Part shown: piece after piece, positions 26,977 through 47,825 of the stretch
Layout: each line of letters starts with the position of its first letter
Numbering within the stretch: the first letter of the stretch is position 1
NCBI GenBank assembly: GCA_025363655.1
Contig: JANYDK010000101.1
Coordinates: forward strand, 1 to 47,825
Reading direction: 5' to 3'
Source of the DNA: Deltaproteobacteria bacterium
Lineage (GTDB): Bacteria > Myxococcota_A > Polyangia > Polyangiales > JADJMO01
DNA length: 47,825 nucleotides
Made by a program: the position numbers and the translations under genes
The notes under the pieces: generated by a model
The model's database searches: none
What the model was told of the DNA's origin: nothing
Seen by the model: only the letters and a program-made list of their open reading frames with translations

Positions 26977-27014
26977 TTCCAGCCGGCTGGAAGTCCAGTG
27001 CCAGCCGGCTGGAA
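26977..27014. repeat. 38-bp paired palindrome element, copy 1
   Basis: Two copies of the 12-bp palindrome CCAGCCGGCTGG lie 22 bp apart (start to start), the outer one extended to TTCC...GGAA, with an 8-bp spacer. The same structure recurs at 35388 and 46016. It starts 9 bp after the stop of the PIN-like gene and ends 11 bp before the rsmB ATG. Confidence 0.93.
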
Positions 27015-27023
27015 GTTTATGGA

Positions 27024-27431
27024 CTACGGCTTCTTCGACGCCGCGCAGGCAACGACGACGCGGGTCTGACGCGCGGCCACGACCTGCGCAATGGATCCGT
27101 CGTACGTCGGCGGTCGACGCCAGCCGTCGAATGGCGTCGCCGCACGCTCGATCGCGTTCGCTCGGTCGGCGTCGAGGACGCCGCAGCCGACGAGCCACGC
27201 AAGCGTGTCGAGAAAGTCGAGCGTGACGACGCCGACGCCCGCGGCCTCTTTCGCTGCGGCGTTATCGTAAGTGACGAACGGCAGGCATCTCCCTCGAGCC
27301 TGCTCGTCCAGGCAAACTGCGAGGGACTCGGCCTCGCCGAGGTCTTTCGTCGAAAAGCGCCCACCGCGAATGCGACTGAAGTGATCCCACACCGGCAGAC
27401 CTGGATGGACGCGGTGCACTTCCGCGTGCAA
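27024..27431 (-). CDS. PIN-like domain fragment, N-terminal strand missing
   Basis: From a TTG at 27431 the frame gives 135 aa. FSTKDLGEAESLAVCLDE and PFVTYDNAAAKEAAGVGV match the second and third acidic motifs of the PIN ribonuclease fold. The first acidic strand (typically xxDxN near the N-terminus) is absent. The frame is open upstream only to a TGA at 27493-27495, with no ATG/GTG/TTG able to supply the missing strand. The gene may be truncated, or the active start may lie in another frame through a frameshift. It is the last gene after the ImmA/IrrE gene (42 bp gap). PIN proteins are often toxins; activity here is doubtful. Confidence 0.55.
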   Translation of the reverse strand: MHAEVHRVHPGLPVWDHFSRIRGGRFSTKDLGEAESLAVCLDEQARGRCLPFVTYDNAAAKEAAGVGVVTLDFLDTLAWLVGCGVLDADRANAIERAATPFDGWRRPPTYDGSIAQVVAARQTRVVVACAASKKP

Positions 27432-27472
27432 ATCGAGAAAGGCGTTCCGTGCCCGAGGCCGGAAACGCGGGG

Positions 27473-28642: not shown

Positions 28643-28687
28643 CGTCACGAAATAGCACCTATTTTGCGCGCGTCCAAACGACGGGCA

Positions 28688-31963: not shown

Positions 31964-34752
31964 GAGAATCCCTCCCAGCGCTTGCCGCAAATGGCATCGA
32001 ACGCGCAGTAGTCGCAGGCGTGCTTCTTTTCGAGCTCGAGATGGTCGTCGACTTCCCCGGGTGGGACGCCGAGGGTCTCGAGCATCGGCAATGCGCAGGA
32101 CACCCCGCCGACCGGGATGCGTCCTGATGCGAGAAATTGCTCGACGCGATCGACGGTCCGCTCGAGCCTCGGCCAAGTGCCCTCGAGAGACGGCGCGCCG
32201 TCGAGCGGACGAACCTCCACGAATATGGGCTCGCAGGTGTAGGCGTGGCCTCGCTTCAGAGAGAAGTAGCCGGCACGAGGAACCCGCATCGCGCCGGTCG
32301 AGAGTTTTCGCGAAACGACGTAGGCGGCCAACTGGATCGATCGGCCGTGCATCAGCAAATCACGATAGCGAGAGCTACCCCACTTGAGGTCGAGCACGAC
32401 CTCGGCACCGTCCGCGCCTCGAAGCAGAAGATCGAGATCACCGACCAGCTTCCGCCCACGCCAATCCACTTCGACGTGAAACTCGACATCGACGACGCGG
32501 AGCTGCGCGTTCCCGAGCAATGAGGAGAGTCTCGTCAGCGAGCGCTCCAGGCCCGCGGCGATCTGCGCGAGCTCGAAGGTCATTCCTGGTCGACGAAGCA
32601 CCGAAGCCTCTTCCGTCAAGAGTCGCTCGAACACATCGGTGAACCGCACGGCGACTTCAGCGGGCGTCGAAAGGGCGCCCTGCTCGTGCAGTTTTTCGAC
32701 CACCCTATGCGCGAGCGTCCCGTGGAGTTGGGGACCCTTCGGGATCGACACGAGATTGCCAGACCGTAGTCGAATGCCGCGACCAAGCACCGAGCGCAGC
32801 GGACAGCTCACCAGCTCTTCGAGGCTACTGGCACTGTATTCGAGAGAAGGCGGCACCGAACCGGCATCGACGCGCCACTCGCCGCGCGCTTCGGGGAGCT
32901 CGAGTGGCTTGGAGGTGACGAGTGGAACAGCGGCGTCGCTGGCAATGGAAACGCCTTCGCGACGAAGGAGATCGCGTACCTCGACCGTCACGCGCGCGAG
33001 TTTTTCGTCGCGTCCGAGTCGCGCCATGATCTCGTGAACGATCGGATGCGCAGAGGGCGCCTCGCCGCGCGCGCGCCGTGGCACCACCAACACCAAGCGC
33101 TTTCGTGCGGCGAGGACCGCTCGTCGCCACGATTCTCCTTCGGCCGACAATCGCGCGGCGATGTCAGCCAGTACGACGTTCGCGCCTCGCAAGGCTTCGA
33201 CCTCTCGCACACGCCACGGACGGGGTCGGGGTCGCCACGCCGTGTCTTCGATGCAATGCCACCAGACGATGGTGTCGCGCGCGGCCCGGAGCATGTTCGG
33301 TGCATCGGCCGCATCGAGCCGCCCCGCCTCTTCGGGAGACACCTCGAGTGAATGCCTCGAAGAGACTTGATCGAGGAGCAACCTCGCGTCGACCAGATCG
33401 AGGATGTCACGGGAGTCGTGCTCGAGCGACTGGCGAAAGGCCCGAGCTCGCGCCATCGCGGCGCCCGTGACGGGAATCTGTGAGATGGCATAGGCGGAGC
33501 CGAGCCAGGTGAGGACGCGATCGGCGATGGAGCTCAAAGCAGCGCGTGGTGCGCCGGTACGCGCCGAGTGACCCGGCATCTCGAACCACACTTCGATCTT
33601 CTCGAGCGTCTCGCGCGCGCGATCCTCACTGCCCGGATGCAACTCGTCGCCGACGCGAAGCCGCTCTGCGATGGTTTCCTTGCCTTGCCGCCACGGCCGC
33701 CCACCGATGCCCGGCGCCTTCGCCAGTGCCCGCGCGAGCGTGTTGCCGACGAAGCCGTGGAACGGGCCGTGCGGAAGGGTGAGCAGCTCGAGTACGCGAT
33801 ACGGATCGCGCGGCTCGAACGCGAGCTCGATCGCCAGCGGGAGGACTTGAAGCATTGGGCGCCACGCGGCCTCCGAATCGAGGCCTTGGCTGCCGAGACC
33901 TGCAGCGACGAGCGCGCCGTCGAGCGCGGAGACGTCGCCGCCGCGCAGCACGACTGCCCGAGAGTCGCGCCAAGTCTGGAGGAGCGCCGCGACGGCTGGC
34001 GCCAACTCCCAAGACGTCTCGCCACGCAGCACGATGAAGGAGCCGTCGCCACGCAATGCCGTCTCGGCGCGGGCGTCTCCGCGGAGAGCGGCTTGCACGC
34101 GCGCCAAGTCGTCGTCGGTTGCGCGTGCGGCGAACGAGGGCGATGCGTGACGGACGTCGACGCCGCGTTCGGCCAGCAGGCGAAAGACACGCTGCCACCT
34201 GCCGGGCCATGCCGTCGGCGGTTCGGCGAGGTGAAGAGCGTCGAACGGTTGGGCAGTCGTCGACGGAAGCTCGGCTTCGACGATCCGTAGGCGATCAGCG
34301 TCGCCAGGAGGGAGAGCGGCGTCGAAGTTGTCGAGGCCTTCGAGGTTCGTGAACGTCGCGAGGCGCTCACCGCCGTCGACGATGGGGTCGCCGTTCCATC
34401 CGGCGGCGACGAGCTCGTCACGCATCGCGAGAAGCGAGGAAGCCGTACCGAGTCGGTCGATCGCGAAGGAGCGCGCGTAGAACGGAGGATTGTTCGGTTG
34501 CGCGAGGAGGTGATCGAGCCGGCGCGCGAAGTGTTGGATGCGGAGGGACTCGCCGACCTCGGGCGTCGGCAAGCCGAGTCGGAGCTCGAGGTTGGCGAGG
34601 AGGGCCGGCGGGTTCCAGACCGGGGTGCCGAGGGAGGCGGGAGAGAGCGAGAGGTCGTTGTGTTCAGTGAGGGAGGAGCCGGAGAAGGAGAGGCCGACGA
34701 GGGGGGTGAGGGTTAGGCGTGCGTTGCCCGCCTGCACGCCTGGCCGGTTCAC
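31960..34752 (-). CDS. addB: AddB-type PD-(D/E)XK nuclease with FeS cluster
   Basis: The product is 930 aa, start GTG 34752. The C-terminal domain has GDLDLLL...EVVLDLKWGSSRYRD and IQLAAYVV, i.e. Asp, Asp-Leu-Lys and Gln-x3-Tyr of the nuclease fold. A first Cys in LEELVSCPLRSVLGRG and a late CDYCAFDAICG triplet form the 4-Cys pattern of AddB iron-sulfur nucleases. No GxxGxGKT Walker A is seen in the N-terminus, so it may lack the helicase activity of classical AddB. The middle is a long helical region of unknown match. It is the first gene of the addB-addA-immA-pin block and divergent from uma2 by 14 bp. Confidence 0.82.
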   Translation of the reverse strand: MNRPGVQAGNARLTLTPLVGLSFSGSSLTEHNDLSLSPASLGTPVWNPPALLANLELRLGLPTPEVGESLRIQHFARRLDHLLAQPNNPPFYARSFAIDRLGTASSLLAMRDELVAAGWNGDPIVDGGERLATFTNLEGLDNFDAALPPGDADRLRIVEAELPSTTAQPFDALHLAEPPTAWPGRWQRVFRLLAERGVDVRHASPSFAARATDDDLARVQAALRGDARAETALRGDGSFIVLRGETSWELAPAVAALLQTWRDSRAVVLRGGDVSALDGALVAAGLGSQGLDSEAAWRPMLQVLPLAIELAFEPRDPYRVLELLTLPHGPFHGFVGNTLARALAKAPGIGGRPWRQGKETIAERLRVGDELHPGSEDRARETLEKIEVWFEMPGHSARTGAPRAALSSIADRVLTWLGSAYAISQIPVTGAAMARARAFRQSLEHDSRDILDLVDARLLLDQVSSRHSLEVSPEEAGRLDAADAPNMLRAARDTIVWWHCIEDTAWRPRPRPWRVREVEALRGANVVLADIAARLSAEGESWRRAVLAARKRLVLVVPRRARGEAPSAHPIVHEIMARLGRDEKLARVTVEVRDLLRREGVSIASDAAVPLVTSKPLELPEARGEWRVDAGSVPPSLEYSASSLEELVSCPLRSVLGRGIRLRSGNLVSIPKGPQLHGTLAHRVVEKLHEQGALSTPAEVAVRFTDVFERLLTEEASVLRRPGMTFELAQIAAGLERSLTRLSSLLGNAQLRVVDVEFHVEVDWRGRKLVGDLDLLLRGADGAEVVLDLKWGSSRYRDLLMHGRSIQLAAYVVSRKLSTGAMRVPRAGYFSLKRGHAYTCEPIFVEVRPLDGAPSLEGTWPRLERTVDRVEQFLASGRIPVGGVSCALPMLETLGVPPGEVDDHLELEKKHACDYCAFDAICGKRWEGFS

Positions 34753-34766
34753 GCTAAACTCGCGGC

Positions 34767-35372
34767 GTGGCTGGAAATGTCGCCTCGCGAACCCTCATGA
34801 CCCCTGCCGAATATCGCGTGATGGAGCGTGACGCGTCGGAGAAGCACATCCTTTGGAACGGCGAGGTGTTCCCCATGTCCGGCCCGTCGTTCGCGATGGC
34901 TGGGGCCTCCGTTGCGCACAACCGGCTCGTCGCTGCGCTGCTCCTCGCGGTCGGTCGCGCGCTGCGTGGAAAGAACTGTGAGGCGCTGCCGTCGGACATG
35001 CGCGTTTGGATTCCGTCTGTCGCCGGCTACGTCTACCCCGACGTCAGCGTCGCGTGTGCCCCGCTCGATCTCGAGAGGCTCGACGGCGTCGAGACGTTGA
35101 AGAATCCTCGCGTCGTCGTCGAGGTGCTGTCGGAGTCGAGCGAGGCTTTCGATCGGGGCGCGAAGTTCGATGGGTATCGGAGCGTGGAGTCGCTCGAGGA
35201 GTACGTGTTGGTGTCGAGCGTGAGGCGCGAGGTCGATCACTTCGTGCGGCAAGCGGATGGTGCGTGGCTGCTGCGGGCGTATCGAGGGAGTGACGTGGTG
35301 CGGATTGGGGTGGTGGGGGTGGAGTTGGGGATGGACGAGTTGTATGAGCGGGTGGGGGCAGAGGGGGCGTAG
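34767..35372 (+). CDS. Uma2-family PD-(D/E)XK endonuclease
   Basis: The product is 201 aa from GTG 34767; an ATG at 34797 (MTPAEYRVMERD) is a common alternative start in this family. The Uma2 pattern includes DASEKHILWNGEVFPMSG, YVYPDVSVAC (Asp), NPRVVVEVLSESSEAFDRG (Glu-x-Leu) and KFDGYRSVESLEEYVLV. This fold belongs to PD-(D/E)XK nucleases; many family members are expanded in cyanobacteria and myxobacteria without known function. It is divergent from addB and followed by the second paired palindrome. Confidence 0.85.
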   Translation: MAGNVASRTLMTPAEYRVMERDASEKHILWNGEVFPMSGPSFAMAGASVAHNRLVAALLLAVGRALRGKNCEALPSDMRVWIPSVAGYVYPDVSVACAPLDLERLDGVETLKNPRVVVEVLSESSEAFDRGAKFDGYRSVESLEEYVLVSSVRREVDHFVRQADGAWLLRAYRGSDVVRIGVVGVELGMDELYERVGAEGA

Positions 35373-35387: not shown

Positions 35388-35425
35388 TTCCAGCCGGCTG
35401 GAAGTGGAGTGCCAGCCGGCTGGAA
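35388..35425. repeat. 38-bp paired palindrome element, copy 2
   Basis: The same arrangement as copy 1, with two CCAGCCGGCTGG dyads 22 bp apart and only the spacer (GTGGAGTG versus GTCCAGTG) differing. It lies between two convergent genes, 15 bp after the uma2 stop and 12 bp before the csb2 stop. It marks the left edge of the cas block. Confidence 0.93.
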
Positions 35426-35437
35426 ATCCAACAGCGT

Positions 35438-37081
35438 TCATCGAGATGTCGCTTCTGGCGCGAAAAGACCGAGGCCGAAGTGAGATGCGTAGCCGAGCGA
35501 AATCGGGCCCTCGAGCGGCGCCTCAAAAGACAGTCTGAGCGATAGACCAATGGCAACAGGAGGCGGCTTGTCCCAGCGAGCGCGGTTGAAGCCTCGGAAC
35601 CGGCGACTCGGTCGCAGCCAGCGGTCCTCGACCACTGCCCCGAGCTCGTTACCGCGCGTGCCGGCAATTACCTGCTCGGCCGAGGCCCACCGGCCATCAT
35701 CCATTTCCACTTCGACGGCGGCCGCCGCAGGAAGTCTACGATGGGCTAGCTCTCGCTGGACTTGTCCGAGCAAGGCATCGTGGCCCTTGGCCTTCAGATA
35801 TCTGGAAGGGACGAATGGCGTCACGCTGCAAAATCTTGACGCCCGAAGCAGAAGCGGAATCGTTTGCCGAAACGACTCGATACTTCCCAGACCGGCAAGG
35901 GCAACGAAAAGATCGGGATGACCCTTCCTTGCGCGATGGCCACGGACGCCGAAAAGAGCGTCGCGTGCGCGTTCATCGAAGCCCATCGGACAGTAGACCA
36001 AAACGTGATCAAGACGTTCGGGTCGCCGACCGAGCGTGAGAGGGATCAGACTCGCATGGCGATGACCTGAGGTCCGCTCGCCCTCTACCTTTCCGGTGAA
36101 GCATGGACTCGGACCGGCGGCCGTCGACGAGCTGCGAATCAGCTCGTCGTGAAGGACCTCGAGTCGCCGCAGCGCGTCCGACATCAGCGGCAGAACCTCG
36201 TCGTTTGCGGTATCGGAGGTCAGCGCGAAGAGCGCTGCGGTTGGTTGTTCGTCCTTTTCCATGGGCCGGGTCGCGTAGATCCTCGGCACAAGCGCGTCGC
36301 GCTCGCGGAAGTAGCTGAGCCACCGCGTGCCAGGAGGCTGACTCCAGCCCTCCCTTCTCAGTGTCGCCGTGTCCTGCATCAGGACTGCGACCATGTCGAC
36401 CGGAATAGCCTCCTCAATCTTGGAGGTCTCCCTCTTCGAGAGCGCCTTGAATTCTTTTCCTTTCGAGGCAGCCTTTGCACGCTCCTCACGCTCGCGCCGT
36501 TCAATCGCCGTCGCCACGGCGCGACGGCGCCATTCTGTATAGTCGGCAGGCTGATCCGGAGCGAGCAGCTCCACCCGTTCAAACCCCGGCCCGGGCGGGC
36601 GATCTTCAGGGATAAGCCAGACGACACCGGTCGGCACATCAGCCAGCAGCCTCGCTTCGACCCATGACTCCGCACGTCCAAGGTACGGCTGAACGCGAAG
36701 CAATTCGGCAAGCACACCACGGCAGGCGGCCGGGAGCTCGGTGGGATATCGGACGAGCATCTCATCGCCGTCCGAAAACCGCAGAAACGCGTCTAGGACC
36801 TTGGTCGTATTTCCCTTGAATGGTGGCATGTAGTGACGAGTGTGGCTCGTAGTTCCACGAGGGAGTGCGTAGGACGGCGCCGCCGCTGTCAGAACGTCGA
36901 CGAGCTCGCGGGCGGCCCCTTCGACGGCCGTCCAGCCGAGTCGCGAGAAGCCCGTCGCTATGAGTGCCCGCAGCAGCCGAAATGGGCTCGGCGGCCACTC
37001 GACGAGTCCCTCATTGACGTGCGCGCCCCACGGCGTCGCGTGATAGCGGCCCGCGAGAAAGCGATACGAGACAGTGAACAT
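35438..37081 (-). CDS. csb2: Type I-G Csb2 (Cas5-Cas6 fusion) protein
   Basis: The product is 547 aa from ATG 37081 (MFTVSYRFLAGRYHATPWG), 2 bp after the csb1 stop. The N-terminus with NEGLVEWPPSPFRLLRALIA is the signature of the GSU0054/Csb2 family. It is followed by a long central region (residues 90-330) and a C-terminal RAMP with the glycine-rich loop SLGYASHFGLGLFAPE, typical of Cas6-type processing subunits. In type I-G, Csb2 combines the Cas5 and Cas6 roles, processing pre-crRNA and binding the 5' handle in Cascade. It is the last gene of the effector operon. Confidence 0.93.
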   Translation of the reverse strand: MFTVSYRFLAGRYHATPWGAHVNEGLVEWPPSPFRLLRALIATGFSRLGWTAVEGAARELVDVLTAAAPSYALPRGTTSHTRHYMPPFKGNTTKVLDAFLRFSDGDEMLVRYPTELPAACRGVLAELLRVQPYLGRAESWVEARLLADVPTGVVWLIPEDRPPGPGFERVELLAPDQPADYTEWRRRAVATAIERREREERAKAASKGKEFKALSKRETSKIEEAIPVDMVAVLMQDTATLRREGWSQPPGTRWLSYFRERDALVPRIYATRPMEKDEQPTAALFALTSDTANDEVLPLMSDALRRLEVLHDELIRSSSTAAGPSPCFTGKVEGERTSGHRHASLIPLTLGRRPERLDHVLVYCPMGFDERARDALFGVRGHRARKGHPDLFVALAGLGSIESFRQTIPLLLRASRFCSVTPFVPSRYLKAKGHDALLGQVQRELAHRRLPAAAAVEVEMDDGRWASAEQVIAGTRGNELGAVVEDRWLRPSRRFRGFNRARWDKPPPVAIGLSLRLSFEAPLEGPISLGYASHFGLGLFAPEATSR

Positions 37082-37083
37082 GG

Positions 37084-38049
37084 CTAGGCCACGAACTCCA
37101 CGGTAGTGATCCCACCAATCTCCGCAAAGCGACTCGCGCACGCTTGAATGGCTGCGGGAAGCTCCTTCGTCAGCGCGGCGAGTGCAGGAAGATTGAAGCC
37201 TGCCGGCCGCTTGGCGCTGACCTCTCCGGCACCGGCTACCTCCAGATCGCACGCTGTCCGAAGGCGCAGGCGCCCGTCGAGCATCTTGCGAATCTTGAAC
37301 AGAGCAAGAAGTACGAGAAGGCGCTCGCCTTCATCGCCGAGGCCGAAAGCGCGAATCTCTTCGAGGTCCAGATTGAAATATGCAACGATACGTTTCGCGG
37401 TGTATTCGTCACGCTGAAAAGGGACGTGACCGAATCCTTCCTTCGCCTCGCCGCTAGGATTGACATGATCTTGTTTCACACCGCCCGACGCCGCCACTTG
37501 GACGTCCTCGGCCTCGATGAATGCGCTGAGCGCGCGCTCTAAGCGGAGACGGCCGCCCACGAGGTCCTTCTTTGCGAGAAAGACTCCATGGAGTAGGGCA
37601 CTCGCGTCGTACCGAAAGATCAATTTTGCCAGCTTCGATCGCGAGATCGCCCCATCCTCGAACTCTTTAGTCTGCTCTTTGAACTTCTTCAGGAACGCGT
37701 CGTTCTTGCTCTCGAGGATGTAGGGCGAATTCAAACGGTGCGCCTCCGTGACCGACGAGGTGAGGTACGCGCCCTTCTTTTCGACGCGAACGTAGGAGAG
37801 ACCGTGCAAGTCCTTCACGAGGGCGTTCTCGACGCCGTCCCAGCACACGGCCTCGAGACGATTCGCCATACTCTGTGCGCTCTCCACCAGCAGACGTGTG
37901 CCCTCTTGCGTTTGGTAAACGGCTGCGCCGAGGTCCGGAAATCCCGTTGGCTGAAAGCGTGAACCCTGCACCGGGCGAAGCTCGACCTCGAACAGAAGGC
38001 GGGCTGCTTGGGCGGACTTGCCGACGACAGGAGACAGATCGAGCGTCAT
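37084..38049 (-). CDS. csb1: Type I-G Cas7 (Csb1) backbone subunit
   Basis: The product is 321 aa, ATG 38049 overlapping the csx17 stop (ATGA). The GSU0053/Csb1 features are ELRPVQGSRFQPTGFPDLG, VESAQSMANRLEAVCWDG and EAHRLNSPYILES. A long RAMP-like region with YDASALLHGVFLAKKDLVGG and TAKRIVAYFNLDLEEI follows. Cas7 subunits polymerise along the crRNA to form Cascade. GC is a little lower here than in the flanks, as is also true of csb2. Confidence 0.93.
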   Translation of the reverse strand: MTLDLSPVVGKSAQAARLLFEVELRPVQGSRFQPTGFPDLGAAVYQTQEGTRLLVESAQSMANRLEAVCWDGVENALVKDLHGLSYVRVEKKGAYLTSSVTEAHRLNSPYILESKNDAFLKKFKEQTKEFEDGAISRSKLAKLIFRYDASALLHGVFLAKKDLVGGRLRLERALSAFIEAEDVQVAASGGVKQDHVNPSGEAKEGFGHVPFQRDEYTAKRIVAYFNLDLEEIRAFGLGDEGERLLVLLALFKIRKMLDGRLRLRTACDLEVAGAGEVSAKRPAGFNLPALAALTKELPAAIQACASRFAEIGGITTVEFVA

Positions 38050-40157
38050 GGTAATTCTTCCTGGTTGAAGGGCTTGGTGACGCGGCCAAGAAGCCGCTCA
38101 GCATCGAGTTGTGAAACTGGAATTGCAACGGTCGCAGCGAGGCGCATCGCGAAGGCTGAATCGCCTGTCAGTACGCCGAGCTTCGGGCGCAGCCCCGCGC
38201 CGGCAAGGCGGCGGAGAAGCAATTGCCCTCCGTCGGTCAATCGCCCTGCCGCAAGCAAGCGAAGTGGCGCGGCGTCGACTCGCCTCTTTATCTGGCCCAG
38301 ATCGAATGGGAGATAGGCGACACGCGTCAGCGCGTGCATCGGCATGGGCTCGCCCGCAGTGCGGGACGCCTGGACCGGGACGCTGGCCCAGTCGATCGAG
38401 AGTAGACCACGCGCAAGGCGCGAGATCTTCGCGTCGTCGACACGTGCCTCCACGAAGAGCCGGATGTCCTCGAGCCGTGCGTTGACTCGCGCCTGTAGAG
38501 GGAACAGGTCGACACCGGACCTGGTGGCGTCGATCACACGACGTAGAGCGATCGCGGCGAGGTCGGCCACCAGCGAATGTCCGCGCCAAACGACGCGCGG
38601 ATCCTTGGCGAGTGAATCCGCGGTCGTATGAAAGTGCTCGAATCGAGGTGATTCGAGTGGAATGACGTTGGCACGAAGCGGACCGAGCTTTCCGTGTCCC
38701 TGCGAGGCGATCGCAATCGCGAGACGCACCTCGGGCGATCCATCGTTGAGAAGCGACAACCACCTCAGAGAAAGCTTTGGTAGGGGCCGCAGGTACGCGC
38801 CCTTCGTGCTCTTGCCATGCGCCACGAAGCCCCCCTCGACGTCGCCGAGGACGCCAATGAGCTCGCACCACGTCTCAGCCGTTGCGGTCGGAAGGCTCGT
38901 CGCCATCAAAGCGCGTTCAAGGGCACGGAGGCCGCGGCCCAGTGCGAGTGGTGCGCCAGTCTTCCCCGCCGCACCGGACAGCCTGCGTACGAAGCCATCG
39001 AGCTCGTCGAGGACGCGGACCTCGGGCCGATGCTTCACCTCGAGAGTTCCAAGAGGGACTGCCAGGTTCGATTGCCCGTTTCGTTCGAAGTAGCCGAAAC
39101 GAGCGAAGCCCGTCACGCCTCGAGCAACGCCAAGATTGGCGATCGCCCGGGTTGCGTCGAGGGTGCCACGTGCAGCGCCGTGTCCCCCGTGTAGGCGGCC
39201 CTCGTCGAAAAGAGCGCGCACTTCCGCGAGCGTTGACGGCTGTGACCAAAGCGGAGCCCATTGCTCGCCCCGCGAAGAGCCATCGGCCGGGGATGCGCTC
39301 GCGTAACCCGATGCCTGGGACCGAAGCGCAAACGGAGCGGCTGCTTGGACCAAGTCGTCGGCATCGAGCCCGCGCAATGAGGCGACGCGAAATACCAGAG
39401 CACCCTCCAACATGAGGACAAAATCCCAAGCGTTCACCAGTGCGCCACCATCGAAGCCTGACGAGGCATTCGCCCCTCCTGCTGCACCCGGAAAAAACTG
39501 TCCGATCGCATTCGGCGTCAGGACCGCCGCCGTAGTGCGCCACATGGAAACGCGCAACATCGACTCCGCCCCCTCGGTGGGAAATCCCGAATCGACGTCG
39601 AATAGCGAGACGAGGCGCTGCATGTAGTTGTTGGTGAAGTCGAGGCGCCGGTCGTTCCCACCAGTTCCGAGCAGCGCGGGGTAACGAGGTTCACCAGCAG
39701 AGTCGACGGTGAACGCCGCCCGTAGCCACTGATATGCCGGCGTGTCCCAGCTCGCCAGACAATCACGGAGCACGCGTGCCTTCGCCTCACCTGTTGGTTT
39801 TTCGACAAGTCCACCCAACTCGTCGATGGCATCGACAATGGCCTTCGCGAACGCATCGAAGCGCGGTGCCTTCGCGCAACGAATCGGATCGAATCCTTCC
39901 TTGTTGTCGCCCTGATAGAAGCCGCTTCCACCATTCCATGGACTGAGCATTGGGGTCGGCGAGTAGCGCTCGAGAAAGTAGCGGGCGAGCTCTTGCGCAT
40001 CGAGCGTGGTGACGAGCGAAAAGACATCGTCGCGCCAAAATCCGCGTGCGCCTGGGTCAGCTTGCTCGGCCACGAGGCGCAACACGCCCAATGCCTTCAG
40101 GTAATGTGCGAGGGGAGCCGGGGCGCAGCCATGAAGCGCGTGTACGTGAAGGCTCAT
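38046..40157 (-). CDS. csx17: Type I-G Csx17 large subunit (Cas8u2)
   Basis: The product is 703 aa from ATG 40157, overlapping the cas3 stop by four bases. The start MSLHVHALHGCAPAPLAHYLKALGVLRL is the conserved Csx17 N-terminus. Other family stretches are FWRDDVFSLVTTLDAQEL and SPWNGGSGFYQGDN. It has no nuclease motif; its role is expected to be PAM and target recognition as the large subunit of the I-G Cascade. A longer frame upstream of 40157 is just the cas3 C-terminus in another frame. Confidence 0.92.
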   Translation of the reverse strand: MSLHVHALHGCAPAPLAHYLKALGVLRLVAEQADPGARGFWRDDVFSLVTTLDAQELARYFLERYSPTPMLSPWNGGSGFYQGDNKEGFDPIRCAKAPRFDAFAKAIVDAIDELGGLVEKPTGEAKARVLRDCLASWDTPAYQWLRAAFTVDSAGEPRYPALLGTGGNDRRLDFTNNYMQRLVSLFDVDSGFPTEGAESMLRVSMWRTTAAVLTPNAIGQFFPGAAGGANASSGFDGGALVNAWDFVLMLEGALVFRVASLRGLDADDLVQAAAPFALRSQASGYASASPADGSSRGEQWAPLWSQPSTLAEVRALFDEGRLHGGHGAARGTLDATRAIANLGVARGVTGFARFGYFERNGQSNLAVPLGTLEVKHRPEVRVLDELDGFVRRLSGAAGKTGAPLALGRGLRALERALMATSLPTATAETWCELIGVLGDVEGGFVAHGKSTKGAYLRPLPKLSLRWLSLLNDGSPEVRLAIAIASQGHGKLGPLRANVIPLESPRFEHFHTTADSLAKDPRVVWRGHSLVADLAAIALRRVIDATRSGVDLFPLQARVNARLEDIRLFVEARVDDAKISRLARGLLSIDWASVPVQASRTAGEPMPMHALTRVAYLPFDLGQIKRRVDAAPLRLLAAGRLTDGGQLLLRRLAGAGLRPKLGVLTGDSAFAMRLAATVAIPVSQLDAERLLGRVTKPFNQEELP

Positions 40158-42757
40158 TGCAGCGTCTCCGGAGGAAGCGCCGAGGAGCGCCAATCCGCTA
40201 CACGCAGGACTGTTTCGAGGAATGCCAGTCCGAACGGACCGTGGCGAGCCCGTAGGCGCTCGCACCGATCGGTCCAGGACGCTCCAAATCGTTCCCCGAC
40301 TCCCAAGGCCGCGATCGACAATGACATGGGGAGCGTGGGAAGCTCCGTCGGCTCGCCGTTCGCGCCCGCGAGGGAGACTGTCGGCACGATGTCCCCGTCG
40401 ACGACTCCGTGGATTCCACCGTGATCGGCTTCAACGTCGAGCGGAGTGCTCGCGAGTCGACCGCGGACCTTGCCGTGGTGCGCACATACGAGGTACGCGA
40501 CGAGATCCACCTCGTCCGCCGAGAGCGCCGCAATTTCAGCGGCGAGTGGATTGGTATCCATTTGTGGGTCGAGCCGCGCGTCGAGCGTCTGCACTCCAAT
40601 TAAGGCAAACATTTCCCGATGCGGTCCCAGAAGCGCGGGGTGCTCAGGGTTACTGCGACGGAGCACCTCGAACAAAAGCAACGTGCTCGCCAACTCGTGA
40701 CGAAAGCCGGGGCGCGCCCCATATGGAGGTCTGCAGAAGGCAGCGGGCGGCGCTTTCGCCAAATCTCCTCGTGGCCCGAAGTGCGGGTCGAGAGCCCTCG
40801 CGGAAGAGCTTATGGCAGCCTGGAAGACCGGGTGAGCTTTGCCGGCATCGTGCCAACGGGCTGCAAGCCCCAGGAGACACACCATCCGGTCAGGGAGACG
40901 GATACGTCGGGCCAGGCGCTCGACTTCGACGCGGGCTTCGTGTCCATGCAACCGAATGGTCTTGTAACCGACCAGTTGGGACAGCGCATCGTCGTCGGTC
41001 GACAGACTCGCTTCGAGGAGACTCGCTTCGACAGGAGAATCCGGCGCGACGATCGAAACCGCGCTCTTGCTGCTTGGGTCCCACCCGCCGTCGGGTCGAT
41101 ACCCGCCTTCGTCGGCGGCGAGCAACACAGTCATGCCAGGAACGATCCGATCTTGACCGCGCTTTCGCTCCCATCGACCGCTCAGAAAGTCGAAGACGAA
41201 CGCTCGCTTGTCCCCCTTCTCGATGTATCGACGCAGCTCTGCGACCGGGACTGGGCACAGCTCCTGCCGCGACGGAAAAGAAACCGACGCGAGGAACCTA
41301 GCGTCGCCCTCGATCGATCGCCAGAAGACGGCGAGATCGCGCTCCTCGCCCGAACGAATGTAGCGACCGATGTCGAGATCCGCTCCGGATAGGTCCGCTG
41401 ATGTGTCGAAGAGCTCCTCGAAATCAGGTCGCCGCAAGACGTGCTTGGGTTCGTATGGATAGAGGCGCGCAAGCCGAGACGGCTCATCCGCGGCGAGTCG
41501 CTCCTCGAACGACTCGAGGCTTGCAGGTCCAACATCCGCGGACGTCGACTGGAGATGCTCGAGCGCTTCCGCCGCACCCGCGAGACTCTCGCGCTCATAG
41601 GGTCGTGCATCGGAGTCCTTTGCAGGCACTTCACCGAGGACCACGACGACGGCGCGCTCGCCCGCCCGACGTGCTGCCCGGCCAAAGCGCTGCACCAACG
41701 ACGACCACGGTGCGAGGTCCGTGAGTAGTGCCTTGGCCGAGATGTCGACGCCGGCCTCGACCACTTGTGTGGCGACGACGATTCGGCCGGCTGGGGGCAA
41801 CGAGGCTTCCTTGTGAAGGAATTCCCATCGCTGACGCTCGGCACCTCGAAAACGCGAATGGACCAATCGGAGATCGGGCGCGGATGCTGCACGTGCTGCG
41901 CGAACCGCCTTCTCGAGTGCCGCAAAGACCTTGTTTGCACGATCCACGGTATTGACGATGACTAAAGTGAGGGTTTCGTGTTCGTGTTTCGCAATCGCCA
42001 GCTTCGCCACGTCCTCGGGCGTCTCCAGATCGCGTCGAACTTCGAGAGGCTTCTGTACCTCCCATAGCCCACCGTCGCGGGCAGCGGCGGGAATGCTCGA
42101 CCGCGGCAGCGCTGCGACGGCATCCCGGAAGTCAATGCTTTGCAGCCAGCTCGGTTGCAGCGTGGCACTCATCCACCATGTCACCGTTGGCCGATACTGG
42201 ACGTGCCCTGCCGAGACGTCGTAGCGACGAAACGCCGCGAGCTGCGAGGTGGTCGCTAGGCCCGTGTCCATGAGCTGCACTTCATCCCCGACCCACAGGG
42301 CATCGTTGTGAAGTCCTGCGAACTCCATGGGCCACAGCCCTCTCGCTGAGCCATACCCACGATTCAGTGCACGGGAGAGGAGCATGTCCTGCGTGCCAAC
42401 GAGTATGGACGGCTCTTCGAGCCGATCGACCCAACGGGCTGCTTCGCGCCCGCCAAGCAGAGTGAAGACCGGAATATTCATTCCGGACCTCGCCACCCAT
42501 TCCCCAAGCACTCGCTCCGTCTGTTCGACGAGAACACGCATGGGCAGACAGATGACGAGACGCATCGGCCAAGCGTCGTTGCTCAGATGTGCCCTGTGAT
42601 AGAGCCACGACAACGCAATGCCGGCCGTCTTTCCGAAGCCCGTCGGAATTCGAATCAATCGGTCCCGACACTGCGGGTCAGCGCCCAGCTCGGACTGCCA
42701 GCAGTGCGGAGCGACCCGTGCAATTCGCTTGAACCAGCTGTCGTAGTCTTCGGCCAT
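40154..42757 (-). CDS. cas3: Cas3 helicase with C-terminal HD nuclease
   Basis: The product is 867 aa from ATG 42757, preceded by GAGGG with a proper spacing; ATG 42790 and TTG 42835 extend the frame without such a site. Walker A is RIPTGFGKTAG (residues 37-44), Walker B is WVGDEVQLMDTG, and SAT is WWMSATLQPS. Helicase lobe two has VVATQVVEAGVDIS and VQRFGRAARR. The HD nuclease is C-terminal with LAARWHDAGKAHPVF, then HELAST and CAHHGKVRG. Helicase-before-HD order is characteristic of type I-G Cas3. It unwinds and degrades target DNA once Cascade binds. Confidence 0.93.
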   Translation of the reverse strand: MAEDYDSWFKRIARVAPHCWQSELGADPQCRDRLIRIPTGFGKTAGIALSWLYHRAHLSNDAWPMRLVICLPMRVLVEQTERVLGEWVARSGMNIPVFTLLGGREAARWVDRLEEPSILVGTQDMLLSRALNRGYGSARGLWPMEFAGLHNDALWVGDEVQLMDTGLATTSQLAAFRRYDVSAGHVQYRPTVTWWMSATLQPSWLQSIDFRDAVAALPRSSIPAAARDGGLWEVQKPLEVRRDLETPEDVAKLAIAKHEHETLTLVIVNTVDRANKVFAALEKAVRAARAASAPDLRLVHSRFRGAERQRWEFLHKEASLPPAGRIVVATQVVEAGVDISAKALLTDLAPWSSLVQRFGRAARRAGERAVVVVLGEVPAKDSDARPYERESLAGAAEALEHLQSTSADVGPASLESFEERLAADEPSRLARLYPYEPKHVLRRPDFEELFDTSADLSGADLDIGRYIRSGEERDLAVFWRSIEGDARFLASVSFPSRQELCPVPVAELRRYIEKGDKRAFVFDFLSGRWERKRGQDRIVPGMTVLLAADEGGYRPDGGWDPSSKSAVSIVAPDSPVEASLLEASLSTDDDALSQLVGYKTIRLHGHEARVEVERLARRIRLPDRMVCLLGLAARWHDAGKAHPVFQAAISSSARALDPHFGPRGDLAKAPPAAFCRPPYGARPGFRHELASTLLLFEVLRRSNPEHPALLGPHREMFALIGVQTLDARLDPQMDTNPLAAEIAALSADEVDLVAYLVCAHHGKVRGRLASTPLDVEADHGGIHGVVDGDIVPTVSLAGANGEPTELPTLPMSLSIAALGVGERFGASWTDRCERLRARHGPFGLAFLETVLRVADWRSSALPPETLQ

Positions 42758-42847
42758 CTTTTCCCTCGGCAGCTCTGCCGCCCGGCTCATCTTGTATGCA
42801 CTCGCGAGCGATTCGCACGGTTCACCACGTCGCAAGCAGTCGTCCGA

Positions 42848-43780
42848 TTAGCGCTGACTGCCCGCGTGTTCAGCTTGTGCGAGGGCACCCTCCGCCAAGC
42901 GCTTCACGGTGTCCTGCAAGGCAACGCTCTCTGGCAAAGCCGCATCCCCCAACCCCACGACGAAGCGCGCCAAAACCTCCACCCCTGCCGTCACCGCACT
43001 CACCCGAATCCCCCCCTCAATCATCTCCACGACGAACGTCCCCTTCGGCAGATTGCTCTGCACCCACCGCGCCGCCTCCCCGCGCACCACGAACGCGCAG
43101 CGCACCGCCTCCCCTTTCCCCGCGTACCCGTCGATGCTCGCCCCAATGAACTTCGCGACGTCGACTTCTGCGATGGTCCGAAACGGCTCGCCCGTTTCGA
43201 GCTTCGCCGCCAGCACTCGATCAATCCGGAAATGCCGCAGCTCACCGCTGCGATGACAGAGCGCGATCATCCGCGTGGTGTCGCCGTACTCCACCCGGGC
43301 GACCGACGCCGTTCGCCACCCACGCACGCCGCGCGCACCGCTGAGGTAGTCGAAGGCGAGCGTGACACGCTTCGCCGCCGCGTCTTCGATGATCGGCAGC
43401 ACGTGCTCACCAACCTGCAGCTCGACGTTGGCGACGGGCGTCGTGACGTTGGGCGATAGCTTCAGGAGACGAGCGATCAAGCGGTCGCGCGTCTGCGTCC
43501 GCCGAAGACGCGCGAGCAATCGCAGCATGTTGCGTACGTCGTCACCGTCGAGCGCGATGCCGCCCGGAATCCATCCGCTTCGAATGTCCCAATGGACCTG
43601 CGGATGCTCCTCGCTTCGAACCAGCGGGAGGCCTGCGTCGCGCAGCCGATGGAGCAACTTTCGAATCGTCGCCGCGCTCACACCCACGCGCGTGGCGAGC
43701 TCCGACTGCGTCCACCCGGATTGCTCCATGAACGCGACAAAGACGTCGACGACCGAGTCGTGTGCGCCCCGCCTCCCCAC
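42848..43780 (-). CDS. HTH-WYL transcriptional regulator of cas operon
   Basis: The product is 310 aa from GTG 43780. An N-terminal helix-turn-helix (QSELATRVGVSAATIRKLLHRL) covers about residues 10-60. The WYL domain follows (about 120-260), with VTLAFDYLSGARGVRGWRT, MIALCHRSGELRHFRIDRV and a C-terminal WCX-like part (VRCAFVVRGEAARWV). WYL regulators bind ligands, often nucleotides, and control CRISPR and DNA-damage genes. It is the first gene of the effector operon and divergent from cas4-cas1, so it may control both directions. A dyad in that gap is a candidate operator. Confidence 0.88.
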   Translation of the reverse strand: MGRRGAHDSVVDVFVAFMEQSGWTQSELATRVGVSAATIRKLLHRLRDAGLPLVRSEEHPQVHWDIRSGWIPGGIALDGDDVRNMLRLLARLRRTQTRDRLIARLLKLSPNVTTPVANVELQVGEHVLPIIEDAAAKRVTLAFDYLSGARGVRGWRTASVARVEYGDTTRMIALCHRSGELRHFRIDRVLAAKLETGEPFRTIAEVDVAKFIGASIDGYAGKGEAVRCAFVVRGEAARWVQSNLPKGTFVVEMIEGGIRVSAVTAGVEVLARFVVGLGDAALPESVALQDTVKRLAEGALAQAEHAGSQR

Positions 43781-43901: not shown

Positions 43902-45701
43902 ATGGCCGAACGCCCAAGCTCAACTGCCGAAGCACTCGAGGTCGAGAATGAGGCCGCGCGCGCCAAGGCGCTCCCGCTCCGTTTGCCGATGGTCGAGTCG
44001 TCGGACGCCGTGCCGGCGCGCATGGTCAACGAGGTTCTCTACTGCGAGCGCCTCCTCTATCTCGAGTGGGCCCAGGGCGAGTGGGCGGACAACTACTTCA
44101 CCGTCGACGGCAACTACGCGCATCGCCGTGCGGACGAGCCGTCGGGTGATCTGCCGCCGCCCGAGGTGTCACCAGATCGGCCGCAGACCGCGCGATCGCT
44201 CTGGCTGACTTCAGAGCGTCTCGGGCTGACGGCGAAGATCGACGTGGTGGAGTCGGATGCCGAGGGGCTGGTCACACCGATCGAGTACAAGCGCGGCGCG
44301 GCGCCGGATGTTCCTGAAGGCGCACACCTGCCGGAGCGTGCACAGCTCTGCGCGCAGGTGCTCTTGTTGCGCGATCATGGGTTTCGTTGTGACGAGGCGG
44401 CGCTGTATTTTGCGGGCAGCCGACGACGCGTGCCCATCACGATCGATGACGCGCTGATCGCGACGACGATGACGGCGATTGCGCGAGCCAAGGAGCTTCG
44501 CGCGCGCTCGAAGCCGCCGCCTCCGCTGAAGAACAGCCCGAAGTGTGATGGGTGCTCGCTGGTTGGAATTTGTCTGCCGGATGAGACGAACCATCTTCGC
44601 TCGGCCACGCCGGCGCAGGTCGAATCGGACGAAGATCGCGAGCCGGCAGCGCTCCGGCGATTGCACCCATCGCGCGATGAACGCCTGCCGCTCTACGTCC
44701 AGGAGCAGGGCGCTCGCATCGGCGTCGACGGGGAGGTGCTCTCGATCAAGCTGCCGAAGGGAAAGGCGAATGGCGACGAGGCCGCTGTGGAAGCGCGTCT
44801 CGCCAACACGTCGCAAGTCAGCATCTACGGCAACGTGCAGGTGAGCACGCAAGCGATGCGAACGCTCGCCGAACGCGGGATTCCACTCTTCCTCTTCACG
44901 TACGGAGGGTGGTTCACCGGCAGGTTGGTGGGGCTCGATCCGAAGAACGTCGAGCTACGCATCGCCCAGTATCGGGCGTCGACGGACGAGGCGTTCTGTC
45001 TGTCGTTCGCGAAGGGAATCGTGGCGGCGAAGATCCGCAACGCTCGGACGATTCTTCGGCGCAATCACTCGGCGCCCGATCCGGTGATGCTCAAACACAT
45101 GGAGCAGATGGCCGTGCTCGCCGAGCAATGCGATGCGATCGAGTCGCTGCTCGGCTACGAAGGTACGGCGGCGCGAGACTACTTCGGCGCGTTCGGTGGC
45201 ATGCTCAAGGGAGATGCGGCGCTCGGTGGGGCGTTCGATCTCGCAGGGAGGAATCGACGGCCGCCGCGTGATCCAATCAACGCGCTGCTCTCGTTCGTCT
45301 ATTCGCTGCTGACGAAGGACGTGGTGCTCGCGGTCACTTCGGCGGGGCTCGATCCGATGATCGGTTTCTACCATCAGCCTCGCTTCGGACGCCCCGGACT
45401 GGCGCTCGATCTCATGGAGGAGCTGCGGCCGATCGTCGCCGATTCGGTCGTGATCGGGGCGCTCAACACCGGGGTCGTCACCGCCGAGGACTTCGTGGCT
45501 CGGTCGGGAGGCGTCGCGCTCTCGGGCCCGTCTCGAAAACGCATCATCGCGGCGTACGAGCGACGCATGGGGCAGGAGTCGATTCACCCGCTGTTCGGCT
45601 ACGCAATCAGCTACCGACGGACGATCGAGGTGCAGGCTCGGTTGCTCGGAAGGCTTCTCTTGGGAGAGGTCGATCGATATCCGTCGCTGAGGCCCCGCTG
45701 A
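43902..45701 (+). CDS. cas4-cas1: Cas4-Cas1 fusion, adaptation nuclease-integrase
   Basis: The product is 599 aa from ATG 43902; ATGs at 43854 and 43860 would add 14-16 residues. The Cas4 half (1-230) has VNEVLYCERLLYLEW, TAKIDVVE and VTPIEYKRG, and the FeS Cys set KCDGCSLVGICLP. The Cas1 half (260-599) has LGYEGTAARDYFGAF (Glu), GFYHQPRFGRPGLALDLMEELRP (His and Asp/Glu) and EDFVARSGGVALSG. The fusion is standard for type I-G. It processes prespacers at the PAM and integrates them. It is divergent from the effector operon and followed 3 bp later by cas2. Confidence 0.95.
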   Translation: MAERPSSTAEALEVENEAARAKALPLRLPMVESSDAVPARMVNEVLYCERLLYLEWAQGEWADNYFTVDGNYAHRRADEPSGDLPPPEVSPDRPQTARSLWLTSERLGLTAKIDVVESDAEGLVTPIEYKRGAAPDVPEGAHLPERAQLCAQVLLLRDHGFRCDEAALYFAGSRRRVPITIDDALIATTMTAIARAKELRARSKPPPPLKNSPKCDGCSLVGICLPDETNHLRSATPAQVESDEDREPAALRRLHPSRDERLPLYVQEQGARIGVDGEVLSIKLPKGKANGDEAAVEARLANTSQVSIYGNVQVSTQAMRTLAERGIPLFLFTYGGWFTGRLVGLDPKNVELRIAQYRASTDEAFCLSFAKGIVAAKIRNARTILRRNHSAPDPVMLKHMEQMAVLAEQCDAIESLLGYEGTAARDYFGAFGGMLKGDAALGGAFDLAGRNRRPPRDPINALLSFVYSLLTKDVVLAVTSAGLDPMIGFYHQPRFGRPGLALDLMEELRPIVADSVVIGALNTGVVTAEDFVARSGGVALSGPSRKRIIAAYERRMGQESIHPLFGYAISYRRTIEVQARLLGRLLLGEVDRYPSLRPR

Positions 45702-45704
45702 GCC

Positions 45705-45995
45705 ATGCGTCAGACGTACATCGTGACCTACGACGTGTGCCACCCGAAGCGCTTGCGCAAGGTCTTCAAGTTGATGAAGGGCTATGGGGTGCACATTCAA
45801 CTCTCGGTGTTCCGCTGCGAGCTCGATCTACGTGAGCTGGTCGAGCTGCGCGCACGCCTCGCCGACGAGATCGACCATCATCAGGATCAGGTGCTGTTCG
45901 TCGACATCGGTCCGAGCGAGGGCCGCGGTGCGACCTCGATACGTGCGCTCGGTAAGGCGTACGTCGCGCCGGAGGGCATCGCGTTGATCATCTGA
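45705..45995 (+). CDS. cas2: Cas2, adaptation dimer subunit
   Basis: The product is 96 aa, ATG 45705, 3 bp after the cas4-cas1 stop. MRQTYIVTYDVCHPKRLRKV places the conserved Asp at residue 10. KGYGVHIQLSVFRCELD follows and FVDIGPSEG marks the beta-5 strand. Cas2 dimers bridge two Cas1 dimers during spacer integration. Translation is likely coupled to cas4-cas1. Confidence 0.96.
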   Translation: MRQTYIVTYDVCHPKRLRKVFKLMKGYGVHIQLSVFRCELDLRELVELRARLADEIDHHQDQVLFVDIGPSEGRGATSIRALGKAYVAPEGIALII

Positions 45996-46015: not shown

Positions 46016-46053
46016 TTCCAGCCGGCTGGAACTCCACCTCCAGCCGGCTGGAA
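46016..46053. repeat. 38-bp paired palindrome element, copy 3 (inverted)
   Basis: The same 38-bp structure, but on the opposite strand relative to copies 1 and 2; its reverse complement differs from copy 2 at two positions. It lies 20 bp after the cas2 stop, so it marks the right edge of the cas block and separates it from the next gene (ATG 46130). Confidence 0.93.
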
Positions 46054-46129
46054 GTCTCGCAATGCGTGTTCCGTTTTCGGGGCTCGACGAGGCGCCCACG
46101 TCCTGATGAGATGCGCAACGGAGGGTCAC

Positions 46130-46831
46130 ATGGCGACCAAGAAGCGCGCGTCGACGAAGACCGTGGCGAAGAAGGCGAGCAAGACGAAGTCGGCGGTGCT
46201 CGCGACCGCCAAGGCAGGGAAGCTCGCATCGAGTGCGGCTGCGCGGCGCGCAGAGGAGCTGATCGATCTCATCGTCCGCCGCAAGCAGCGCATTGCCGAG
46301 GACTTCTACGACATCGGCGTCGCGCTCCACGAGCTCGAGAAGAAGAAGCTCTATGCGCCGTTGGGCTACGCTTCCTTCAGCGAGCTGCTGGAGAAGCACA
46401 AGCTGATGAGCGTGTCTTCGGCGAGCAAGCTGATGGCGATCGTCGGCGCGATGTCGCGTGATCGCGCGCTGCCCCTCGGTTCGGAGAAGGCTTATGCACT
46501 GGCGCGGTTGGTGGAGAACTCGCCGGACCTCACCACCGTCGATCAGGCGCTCGAACAGGGCGTGAAGGTCAAGGGCAAGACGGTGCGGGTGAACGATCTT
46601 TCGCGACGAGAGATCGAGAAGCTGGCGAAGAAGGCGCGGAAACCGTCCGCGGTTCCCGCGCAGGATCGGGCCGCAATTGCTGCCGCGAAGGAGGCGCAGC
46701 GCGTGCTGCGCAGGGCGGGCGCTCCGCATGCGCACGCGAAGGATGTTCGTCGTGGCGGAACCTGGTGGGTGCAGCTCGAGCTGTCCGTCGACGAGCTGGA
46801 TGTCGTGCTACGACGTGTCGAGAGGAAGTGA
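46130..46831 (+). CDS. Basic-tailed helical protein between cas2 and CRISPR leader
   Basis: The product is 233 aa from ATG 46130, with GGAGGG 4 bp before it; an in-frame ATG at 46106 lacks such a site. Residues 1-40 are Lys/Ala/Thr/Ser-rich (MATKKRASTKTVAKKASKTK), similar to histone-H1-like tails that bind DNA. Residues 45-110 are helical (ELIDLIVRRKQRIAEDFYDI, then GYASFSELLEKHKLMSVSSA), loosely like DUF3102-type modules. The rest is helical with WWVQLELSVDELDVVLRRVE at the end. No known Cas family matches. Its location just before the array leader suggests a nucleoid-type or CRISPR-associated DNA-binding role; this is inference. Confidence 0.7.
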   Translation: MATKKRASTKTVAKKASKTKSAVLATAKAGKLASSAAARRAEELIDLIVRRKQRIAEDFYDIGVALHELEKKKLYAPLGYASFSELLEKHKLMSVSSASKLMAIVGAMSRDRALPLGSEKAYALARLVENSPDLTTVDQALEQGVKVKGKTVRVNDLSRREIEKLAKKARKPSAVPAQDRAAIAAAKEAQRVLRRAGAPHAHAKDVRRGGTWWVQLELSVDELDVVLRRVERK

Positions 46832-47014
46832 TGGCTTCGAGCGCCGGAGTGACGCCCGAAGTCCGGGCACCGCTCGCAGCGGCTTGATCTTTGGCAATTC
46901 AATGACTTGCGAAGCACCACTCGGCGGGAGGGTGGTGCTTCGGGTATGGTTGGGGTGGTACCGCTCGCAGGAGCGGTTGGAAGTGATGGAAGGTGTTTGG
47001 GTCCTGGTGGGCCC
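46832..47014 (+). promoter_or_regulatory. Candidate CRISPR leader with direct repeats
   Basis: This 183-bp non-coding stretch directly precedes the first repeat, so it is the likely leader. It has two direct repeats: ACCGCTCGCAG at 46869-46879 and 46960-46970, and GGAAGTGATGG at 46824-46834 (crossing the stop codon) and 46979-46989. Small self-complementary motifs surround the first pair. No clear promoter is visible because the region is GC-rich. Confidence 0.55.
46910..46942. repeat. Inverted repeat hairpin in CRISPR leader
   Basis: CGAAGCACCAC (46910-46920) pairs perfectly with GTGGTGCTTCG (46932-46942) across an 11-bp loop. It could terminate the upstream gene or form part of a leader recognition structure. 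No U-rich tail follows, so it is not a standard terminator. Confidence 0.6.
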
Positions 47015-47825
47015 CTCTCTGCGACCAACGGGTCGCAGCCCCGTTGAAGCTCGAGGCGGAAGGAGGAGGCGACACGGGCGTCCCGACTCTCTGCGACCAA
47101 CGGGTCGCAGCCCCGTTGAAGCTCGTCGTCCTCTTCGGCTTCGCGGTGTGGAAGACCCACTCTCTGCGACCAACGGGTCGCAGCCCCGTTGAAGCACGAT
47201 CACCCGCAACCGCGGCTCGTACCTCGATGACGGCTCTCTGCGACCAACGGGTCGCAGCCCCGTTGAAGCTCCAGGCGCGACTCGATCGCGGACTTGATCA
47301 GCTCTTCTCTCTGCGACCAACGGGTCGCAGCCCCGTTGAAGCTCGAATGACCTGCACGGCGATCACCACGACGAAGACCGCCTCTCTGCGACCAACGGGT
47401 CGCAGCCCCGTTGAAGCACGTTGTGCTGCTCGTCGAGCAGCACGTTGCGGCTCTTCTCTCTGCGACCAACGGGTCGCAGCCCCGTTGAAGCAACGCCGCA
47501 CGCCTCGCCGCGCAGCTCACGCAAGAGCGCTCTCTGCGACCAACGGGTCGCAGCCCCGTTGAAGCCTGCAGGAGCTCGTCGTCGGACGTGCGCACGATGT
47601 ACCTCTCTGCGACCAACGGGTCGCAGCCCCGTTGAAGCAGGATCGACTGCAGTTCGCGCGGGTCGAAGTCGCTTCGCTCTCTCTGCGACCAACGGGTCGC
47701 AGCCCCGTTGAAGCTCGACGCCCTTCCGAGGCACCGGCGGATTGCGCCGCTCTCTCTGCGACCAACGGGTCGCAGCCCCGTTGAAGCTACGCGATCACCC
47801 ACTGGGGTGAGGTGACGGGGTGGCC
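47015..47825 (+). CRISPR. Type I-G CRISPR array, 11 repeats, open at right edge
   Basis: Eleven identical 36-bp repeats start at 47015, 47087, 47160, 47234, 47307, 47382, 47456, 47530, 47603, 47679 and 47752. They separate ten spacers of 36-40 bp, and the 38 bases after the last repeat may be an eleventh spacer. The repeat begins CTCTCTGCGACC and ends CCCCGTTGAAGC. TGCGACC and GGTCGCA within it form a 7-bp stem with a 4-base AACG loop for Csb2 processing, and GTTGAAGC would be the 5' handle. The orientation puts the leader on the left, after the cas genes, and the newest spacer at 47051. No repeat variant is seen, suggesting an active array. Confidence 0.98.

Follow-up and report, generated by a model that had tools for sequence, protein, structure and literature searches.

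A candidate ParB/Noc-like protein and its linked palindromes at the edges of a type I-G CRISPR module in a Polyangiales genome

Known regulators and accessories of CRISPR loci include Csa3, WYL and Csx proteins, and to our knowledge none of the known CRISPR regulators is of the ParB type with sites at the edges of a module. CvkR of CAST is also a regulator-type gene at a cas locus (PMC9938897). The gene described here shares with Csa3, WYL, Csx and CvkR a regulator-type character and a place in or next to a cas locus, but those are wHTH, WYL or MerR proteins, and we found no link in the literature between ParB-type proteins and CRISPR loci. A survey of myxobacterial CRISPR systems describes type I-G as common in Sorangiineae, and a term search of its text turned up no gene placed in the interval from cas2 to the leader (PMC11237760).

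By predicted architecture, a close relative in kind is ParT of the Streptomyces plasmid SCP2, a ParB-like protein without the CTPase that moves along DNA in an NTP-independent manner after loading at a gene-linked inverted repeat of 18 bp; its listed homologs are mainly from Actinomycetota and Cyanobacteriota (PMC12260392). Set against that published description, the protein studied here is predicted to share the flexible N-terminal peptide, the long helix, the ParB-type HTH, the linker, a C-terminal domain that may serve dimerisation and the lack of a CTPase (PMC12260392), and a linked inverted-repeat site is found in both. The family here differs in being chromosomal, multi-copy and from Myxococcota, and in having tandem sites spaced by 22 bp and a CRISPR-linked lineage. 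It also differs in its neighbourhood: no ParA-type Walker motif was found among the 397 genes adjoining 61 family members, which makes a partition role unlikely, and the reading as a partition system was considered and dropped. What would be new is the setting, the tandem sites and the CRISPR-linked branch, while a ParT-like build, as judged from predicted structure, is known.

ParB/Spo0J and Noc are matched by the predicted DNA-binding domain, the predicted C-terminal domain matches the ParB dimerisation domain, and the linked 16-bp palindromes with a C|G centre are parS-like. In contrast to these proteins, the family here has neither the N-terminal CTPase domain nor a detectable sequence family match, and its site sequences are unlike parS and differ among members. 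KorB of plasmid RK2, a ParB-type regulator that acts from distant operators as a CTPase clamp with the partner KorA (PMC11790492), offers a functional model for regulation from sites at a distance, but neither a CTPase clamp nor a KorA partner was seen in the system of the window.

The gene between cas2 and the leader

The window, which is the whole stretch of DNA analysed, is a complete contig of 47,825 bp from a 9.0-Mb genome in 150 contigs (G000). Its CRISPR system was assigned to type I-G with NCBIfam (Cas4g/Cas1g E 1e-215, Csx17/Cas8g, Cas3g, Csb1, Csb2). The features are as follows, with the evidence in brackets.

26977..27014, no strand: site 1, the same palindrome pair as site 3, 8.4 kb further out than site 2 (palindrome search)
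34767..35372, + strand: Uma2-family gene adjoining site 2, outside the I-G module (PF05685, E 2e-27)
35388..35425, no strand: site 2, palindrome pair as at sites 1 and 3, far edge of the I-G module (palindrome search)
35438..37081, - strand: cas5g/csb2 (TIGR02165)
37084..38049, - strand: cas7g/csb1 (TIGR02570)
38046..40193, - strand: cas8g/csx17, start approximate (NCBIfam)
40154..42835, - strand: cas3g (TIGR02621)
42848..43780, - strand: gene for a WYL-domain regulator inside the bracketed module (PF13280)
43902..45701, + strand: cas4g/cas1g fusion, start approximate (Pfam, NCBIfam)
45705..45995, + strand: cas2 (PF09827, E 1e-18)
46016..46053, no strand: site 3, 16-bp palindromes TTCCAGCCGGCTGGAA / CTCCAGCCGGCTGGAA, 22 bp centre to centre (palindrome search)
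46120..46124, + strand: ribosome binding site GGAGG (sequence)
46130..46831, + strand: gene for the candidate ParB/Noc-like (ParT-like) protein, 233 aa (predicted fold)
46832..47014, + strand: leader, with the conserved motif CGCTCGCAGC...GATCTTTGGCAATT at 46871-46899
47015..47787, + strand: type I-G CRISPR array, 11 repeats of CTCTCTGCGACCAACGGGTCGCAGCCCCGTTGAAGC, reaching the contig end (repeats)

The array may continue beyond the window, since the contig ends at 47825. The coordinates and the GGAGG 5' of the ATG start codon agree with the initial annotation, which had placed a gene with a ribosome binding site between cas2 and the I-G leader and array, on the same strand; cas2, the gene and the array are all on the + strand. 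The ORF is a real gene, as judged from dozens of intact homologs and from dN/dS values of 0.18-0.46 between close family pairs, which also indicate purifying selection on the family protein. Scans with Pfam, PADLOC and NCBIfam gave no significant match; the initial annotation had recognised no Cas family in it. Two PHROGs of unknown function match the protein (E 4e-8 and 8e-5), weak matches to HepT and XerD (E 0.01 and 0.03) were dismissed, and a PDB sequence search with the family profile returned chance matches only.

A predicted ParB/Noc-type fold

The AlphaFold model of the 233-aa protein (pLDDT 80.5; residues ~40-130 mostly above 90) is laid out as a Lys/Ala tail (1-35), a long helix (36-71), an HTH domain to ~170, a linker and an abba domain (177-233). 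The tail is disordered, with pLDDT below 50 across most of it, and the rest is predicted to be helical with two small beta hairpins. The H1-like tail and helical core of the initial annotation are present in outline, with the tail at the N-terminus and the hairpins in addition to the helices.

Residues 38-173 of the model match the Noc DNA-binding domain 6y93 at Z 8.6 (110 residues aligned, 3.4 Å), and the ParB structures 6s6h and 6t1f follow at Z 7.7 and 7.3; all of the top eight structural matches are ParB or Noc chains (Z 8.6-6.8), although Z values of 7-8.6 are middling and the Foldseek E-values are not significant. The last ~55 residues (177-233) match the C-terminal domain of B. subtilis ParB, 5noc, at Z 4.6 with a Foldseek TMt of 0.60. 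A model of a second member, from Sorangium and 35% identical, has Noc, ParB and Spo0J among its 12 best matches and, below them, KorB, SopB and P1 ParB, with the Noc/ParB matches at Z 7.2-5.2; both models were built on three-sequence alignments. Pfam HTH_ParB has no sequence-level match in the protein, and a profile comparison with myxobacterial ParBs gave a weak match in the expected register (probability 24%, P 9e-4). Three lines agree in the ParB-type reading: the uniform top matches of both models, a site geometry like that of parS, and this weak profile match.

A central ParB-type HTH domain is thus present by predicted structure only. The N-terminal ParB CTPase domain is absent: Pfam gives no match, residues 1-35 are disordered and 36-71 form a single helix. 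Structure prediction, suggested with the initial annotation as a check, was run and places two members with the DNA-binding domains of ParB, Noc and KorB, and the predicted fold is in line with the earlier description of an unrecognised, basic-tailed protein of DNA-binding type. Most likely, the gene encodes a site-specific DNA-binding protein built like ParB, minus the part that uses CTP.

Palindromes linked to the gene and its family

The initial annotation had overlooked the three palindrome pairs at 46016-46053, 35388-35425 and 26977-27014. Site 3 lies 20 bp past the cas2 stop and 76 bp 5' of the 233-aa gene; site 2 is flanked by the converging 3' ends of uma2 and of cas5g/csb2, where a promoter is not expected; and site 1 has an rsmB-like gene on one side and a 135-aa ORF on the other. 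The I-G module (cas5g, cas7g, cas8g, cas3g, WYL, cas4-1, cas2) has its edges at sites 2 and 3, and the 22-bp spacing puts both palindromes of a pair on the same face of the helix. A scan of the window at up to 3 mismatches gave six palindrome matches against 0.22 expected by chance, and in the 9.0 Mb of the genome TCCAGCCGGCTGGA (up to 1 mismatch) occurs as only three pairs, all in the window contig and within 19 kb. No copy was found in the leader or the array, and we found no evidence in support of the earlier suggestion that the protein shapes the DNA there.

The block between sites 1 and 2 (27024-35372) carries the 135-aa ORF, an HTH-ImmA-type (Peptidase_M78) gene, an AddAB-like helicase-nuclease pair and the Uma2 gene, and is possibly a second module marked by sites. 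An inverted repeat occupies the start of the contig (1-305; 80% over ~310 bp). Long inverted repeats of up to ~400 bp (80% self-complementary) were also seen near family and Uma2 genes in G055 (L048:8269-8663, L052:8466-8783, L047:9443-9585, L072:335-827). Uma2 genes seemed to recur as a linked partner of the family, but their frequency near family genes (5/201) and far from them (4/328) does not differ significantly (p 0.31).

Homologs were found at E 1e-3 in 33 of 56 relatives, a count into which a more distant and mostly single-copy protein also enters. At E 1e-15, 32 genomes out of 183 in the order carry the family, often more than once (10 copies in G003, 7 in G023 and 6 each in G055 and G011). 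Searches of genome contigs gave relatives in, among others, Sorangium cellulosum So ce26 and a Polyangiaceae MAG; the plasmid, phage and viral contig collections searched held no close relative. The distant paralog occurs in many genomes of the order (L068-L071 among them), mostly as a single copy, and lacks the palindromes; a conserved KLGIKGAAPWAARHAAKHAAEARARAAEP stretch was seen in L068-L070.

Most close family genes adjoin palindromes of at least 16 bp, usually repeated at 21-22 bp and placed 5' of the start or just 3' of the stop codon; nearly all family sites have a C|G centre, like parS. By a strict tandem-pair criterion, a pair lies within 250 bp of 27/79 family genes against 7/327 control genes from the same loci (Fisher p 2e-15). 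The tandem-pair pattern has 29 forward matches in 6 of 56 genomes, all of them with close homologs, and the reversed control has 1 match. The palindromes vary between members, and half-site similarity tracks protein similarity (Mantel r 0.44, 0/5000 permutations). Such co-variation is expected of a protein with its own binding site, which, judging from these sequences, the family protein would bind. In many relatives not linked to CRISPR the site lies 3' of the family gene's stop codon, so that promoter autoregulation cannot be general.

Several further arrangements of sites were observed. One family gene of G419 is edged by a long tandem run of about 15 or more palindromes of the GCCAACGCTGGC type (L237:3955-4310). 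In G023 (L117, L118, L120), palindrome pairs adjoin decayed 3' remnants of family genes and are solo sites of lost copies, and a solo site in G015 is absent from the orthologous spot in G030. In G003 (L104-L107), S23-type genes or remnants (23S rRNA IVP, PF05635) each have, no more than ~10-15 bp past the stop, the palindrome pair that also accompanies the CRISPR-linked homolog of that genome, and the mutual homology of these copies stops at the edge of the second palindrome. Readings as a site-specific recombinase or an integron-like cassette were considered, and no catalytic signature was found.

CRISPR linkage and possible roles

The order cas4-1, cas2, site, family gene, leader, array is found in five genomes (the window, L033, L187, L220 and L226). 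The tree of 49 Cas4-1 proteins places the five linked ones within one clade of seven (support 95/92) with two unlinked ones, as would result from one gain and one loss of the linked gene, and none of 500 shuffles came out as low. The CRISPR-linked members do not form one clade in the tree of the family protein itself, where the L033 protein groups with a paralog from its own genome. Among 50 I-G loci surveyed across the phylum, the family gene is present only in the window, and a CRISPR neighbourhood is lacking for 56 of the 61 well-scoring members found. As to the earlier idea of a new type I-G accessory, the position between cas2 and the leader recurs within one Cas4-1 clade, and a general accessory is not supported, at 1 of 50 loci. 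The association is stable in one I-G lineage and is neither universal nor a single accident. A CRISPR-linked homolog in L267 (G420:C404) adjoins a Cas4-1/Cas2 module whose set of effector genes is different, with a weak match to Cas3, and the contig edge there carries a WYL-like gene.

Sites at both module edges were found in three genomes (G000, G003 and G453), each with a different palindrome; in the other two CRISPR-linked loci (G420, G441) the far edge lies beyond the contig ends. The 6.6 Mb of G453 contain just two copies of TCCAGGCGCCTGGA, one in the interval from cas2 to the homolog and the other past cas3, which are the two edges of its I-G module. In G003, one copy of the palindrome GCGCAGGCGCCTGCGC separates cas2 from the homolog and another stands ~1.2 kb past cas3, bracketing the module even though its cas operon has the opposite orientation to that in the window; this palindrome is also found at seven other places in that genome. 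The restriction of the window palindromes to the module edges and one nearby spot suggests an undescribed way to mark off or control a CRISPR locus.

Computation supports the gene and its family, the linked sites with their genomic restriction and co-variation, the predicted fold, the bracketing and the lineage association; binding, dimerisation, autoregulation and any effect on cas expression or adaptation we infer. In the reading we favour, whose chances we judge to be about even, a CTPase-less dimer of the ParB/Noc type binds its own pair and the pair at the far edge, setting the cas module apart and tuning its transcription. The protein would recognise, as a dimer, its own parS-like site of two 16-bp palindromes. 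Binding at site 3, before its own gene, may lead to autoregulation and may form a barrier that separates cas2 transcription from the leader. The protein would also bind the matching pair at site 2, and with both edges bound, perhaps by sliding or bridging as ParT, KorB and Noc do, the module would be set apart; the bound, sliding or bridging protein could then tune or silence its transcription, by analogy with KorB (PMC11790492). The middling structural scores, the weak sequence-level match, the location of site 2 at converging gene ends, the downstream sites of many relatives and the seven further copies in G003 weigh against this reading. A bolder version, which we regard as doubtful, is that a CTP-independent ParB-type clamp loads at parS-like sites of its own at the two edges, from which the whole module would be coated, bridged or silenced as a single domain. 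That such a clamp is a domesticated partition-type protein, acting as a chromatin-like boundary of a defence locus and forming one branch of a diverging protein-site family, we hold equally doubtful.

There are two main rivals. In the first, the protein would be a plain local autorepressor that binds site 3 and controls only its own expression, the other two pairs being incidental or relics. The palindromes resemble operators, and in 5/5 CRISPR-linked loci the site lies in the interval between cas2 and the gene, a likely place for a promoter. However, all extra copies in the genome are confined to the window contig, three genomes, differing in their palindromes, have a site at the far module edge, and the site is 3' of the gene in many relatives; we consider this explanation rather unlikely. 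The multi-copy, scattered family, the decayed copies with their site in G023, the S23-type genes dispersed with the site in G003 with homology ending at the site edge, and the G015 solo site missing from G030 would fit a mobile or selfish cassette of gene plus site that landed between cas2 and the leader with no CRISPR role. Retention of the gene in 5/7 members of one Cas4-1 clade, purifying selection, the sites at both module edges and the lack of any transposase or recombinase signature found speak against it, and such a cassette seems unlikely.

An IHF-like adaptation factor, which would shape the leader for spacer integration by Cas4/1-Cas2, is suggested by the basic tail, by the gene lying directly 5' of the leader in five genomes and by the unknown host factor that has been proposed for I-G adaptation (PMC10504553). 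This is very improbable: the leader and array hold no palindrome copy, most I-G loci do not have the gene, and gene-less loci have an identical leader motif at the normal distance, directly following cas2. The Lys/Ala tail would also suit a generic H1-like nucleoid protein without sequence specificity, the other possibility raised in the initial annotation. The predicted ParB/Noc fold and the linked, co-varying palindromes run counter to it, the specificity implied by linked sites arguing against purely non-specific DNA binding, and we find this barely credible.

ParB-type proteins without a CTPase domain have been described only recently, on a plasmid. The family here is chromosomal and multi-copy, with proteins and sites that diverge in step, and so offers a natural series for following how the specificity of a ParB-type HTH changes. 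If confirmed, the proposed dimer binding at both module edges would represent a form of CRISPR control or insulation for which we know of no precedent.
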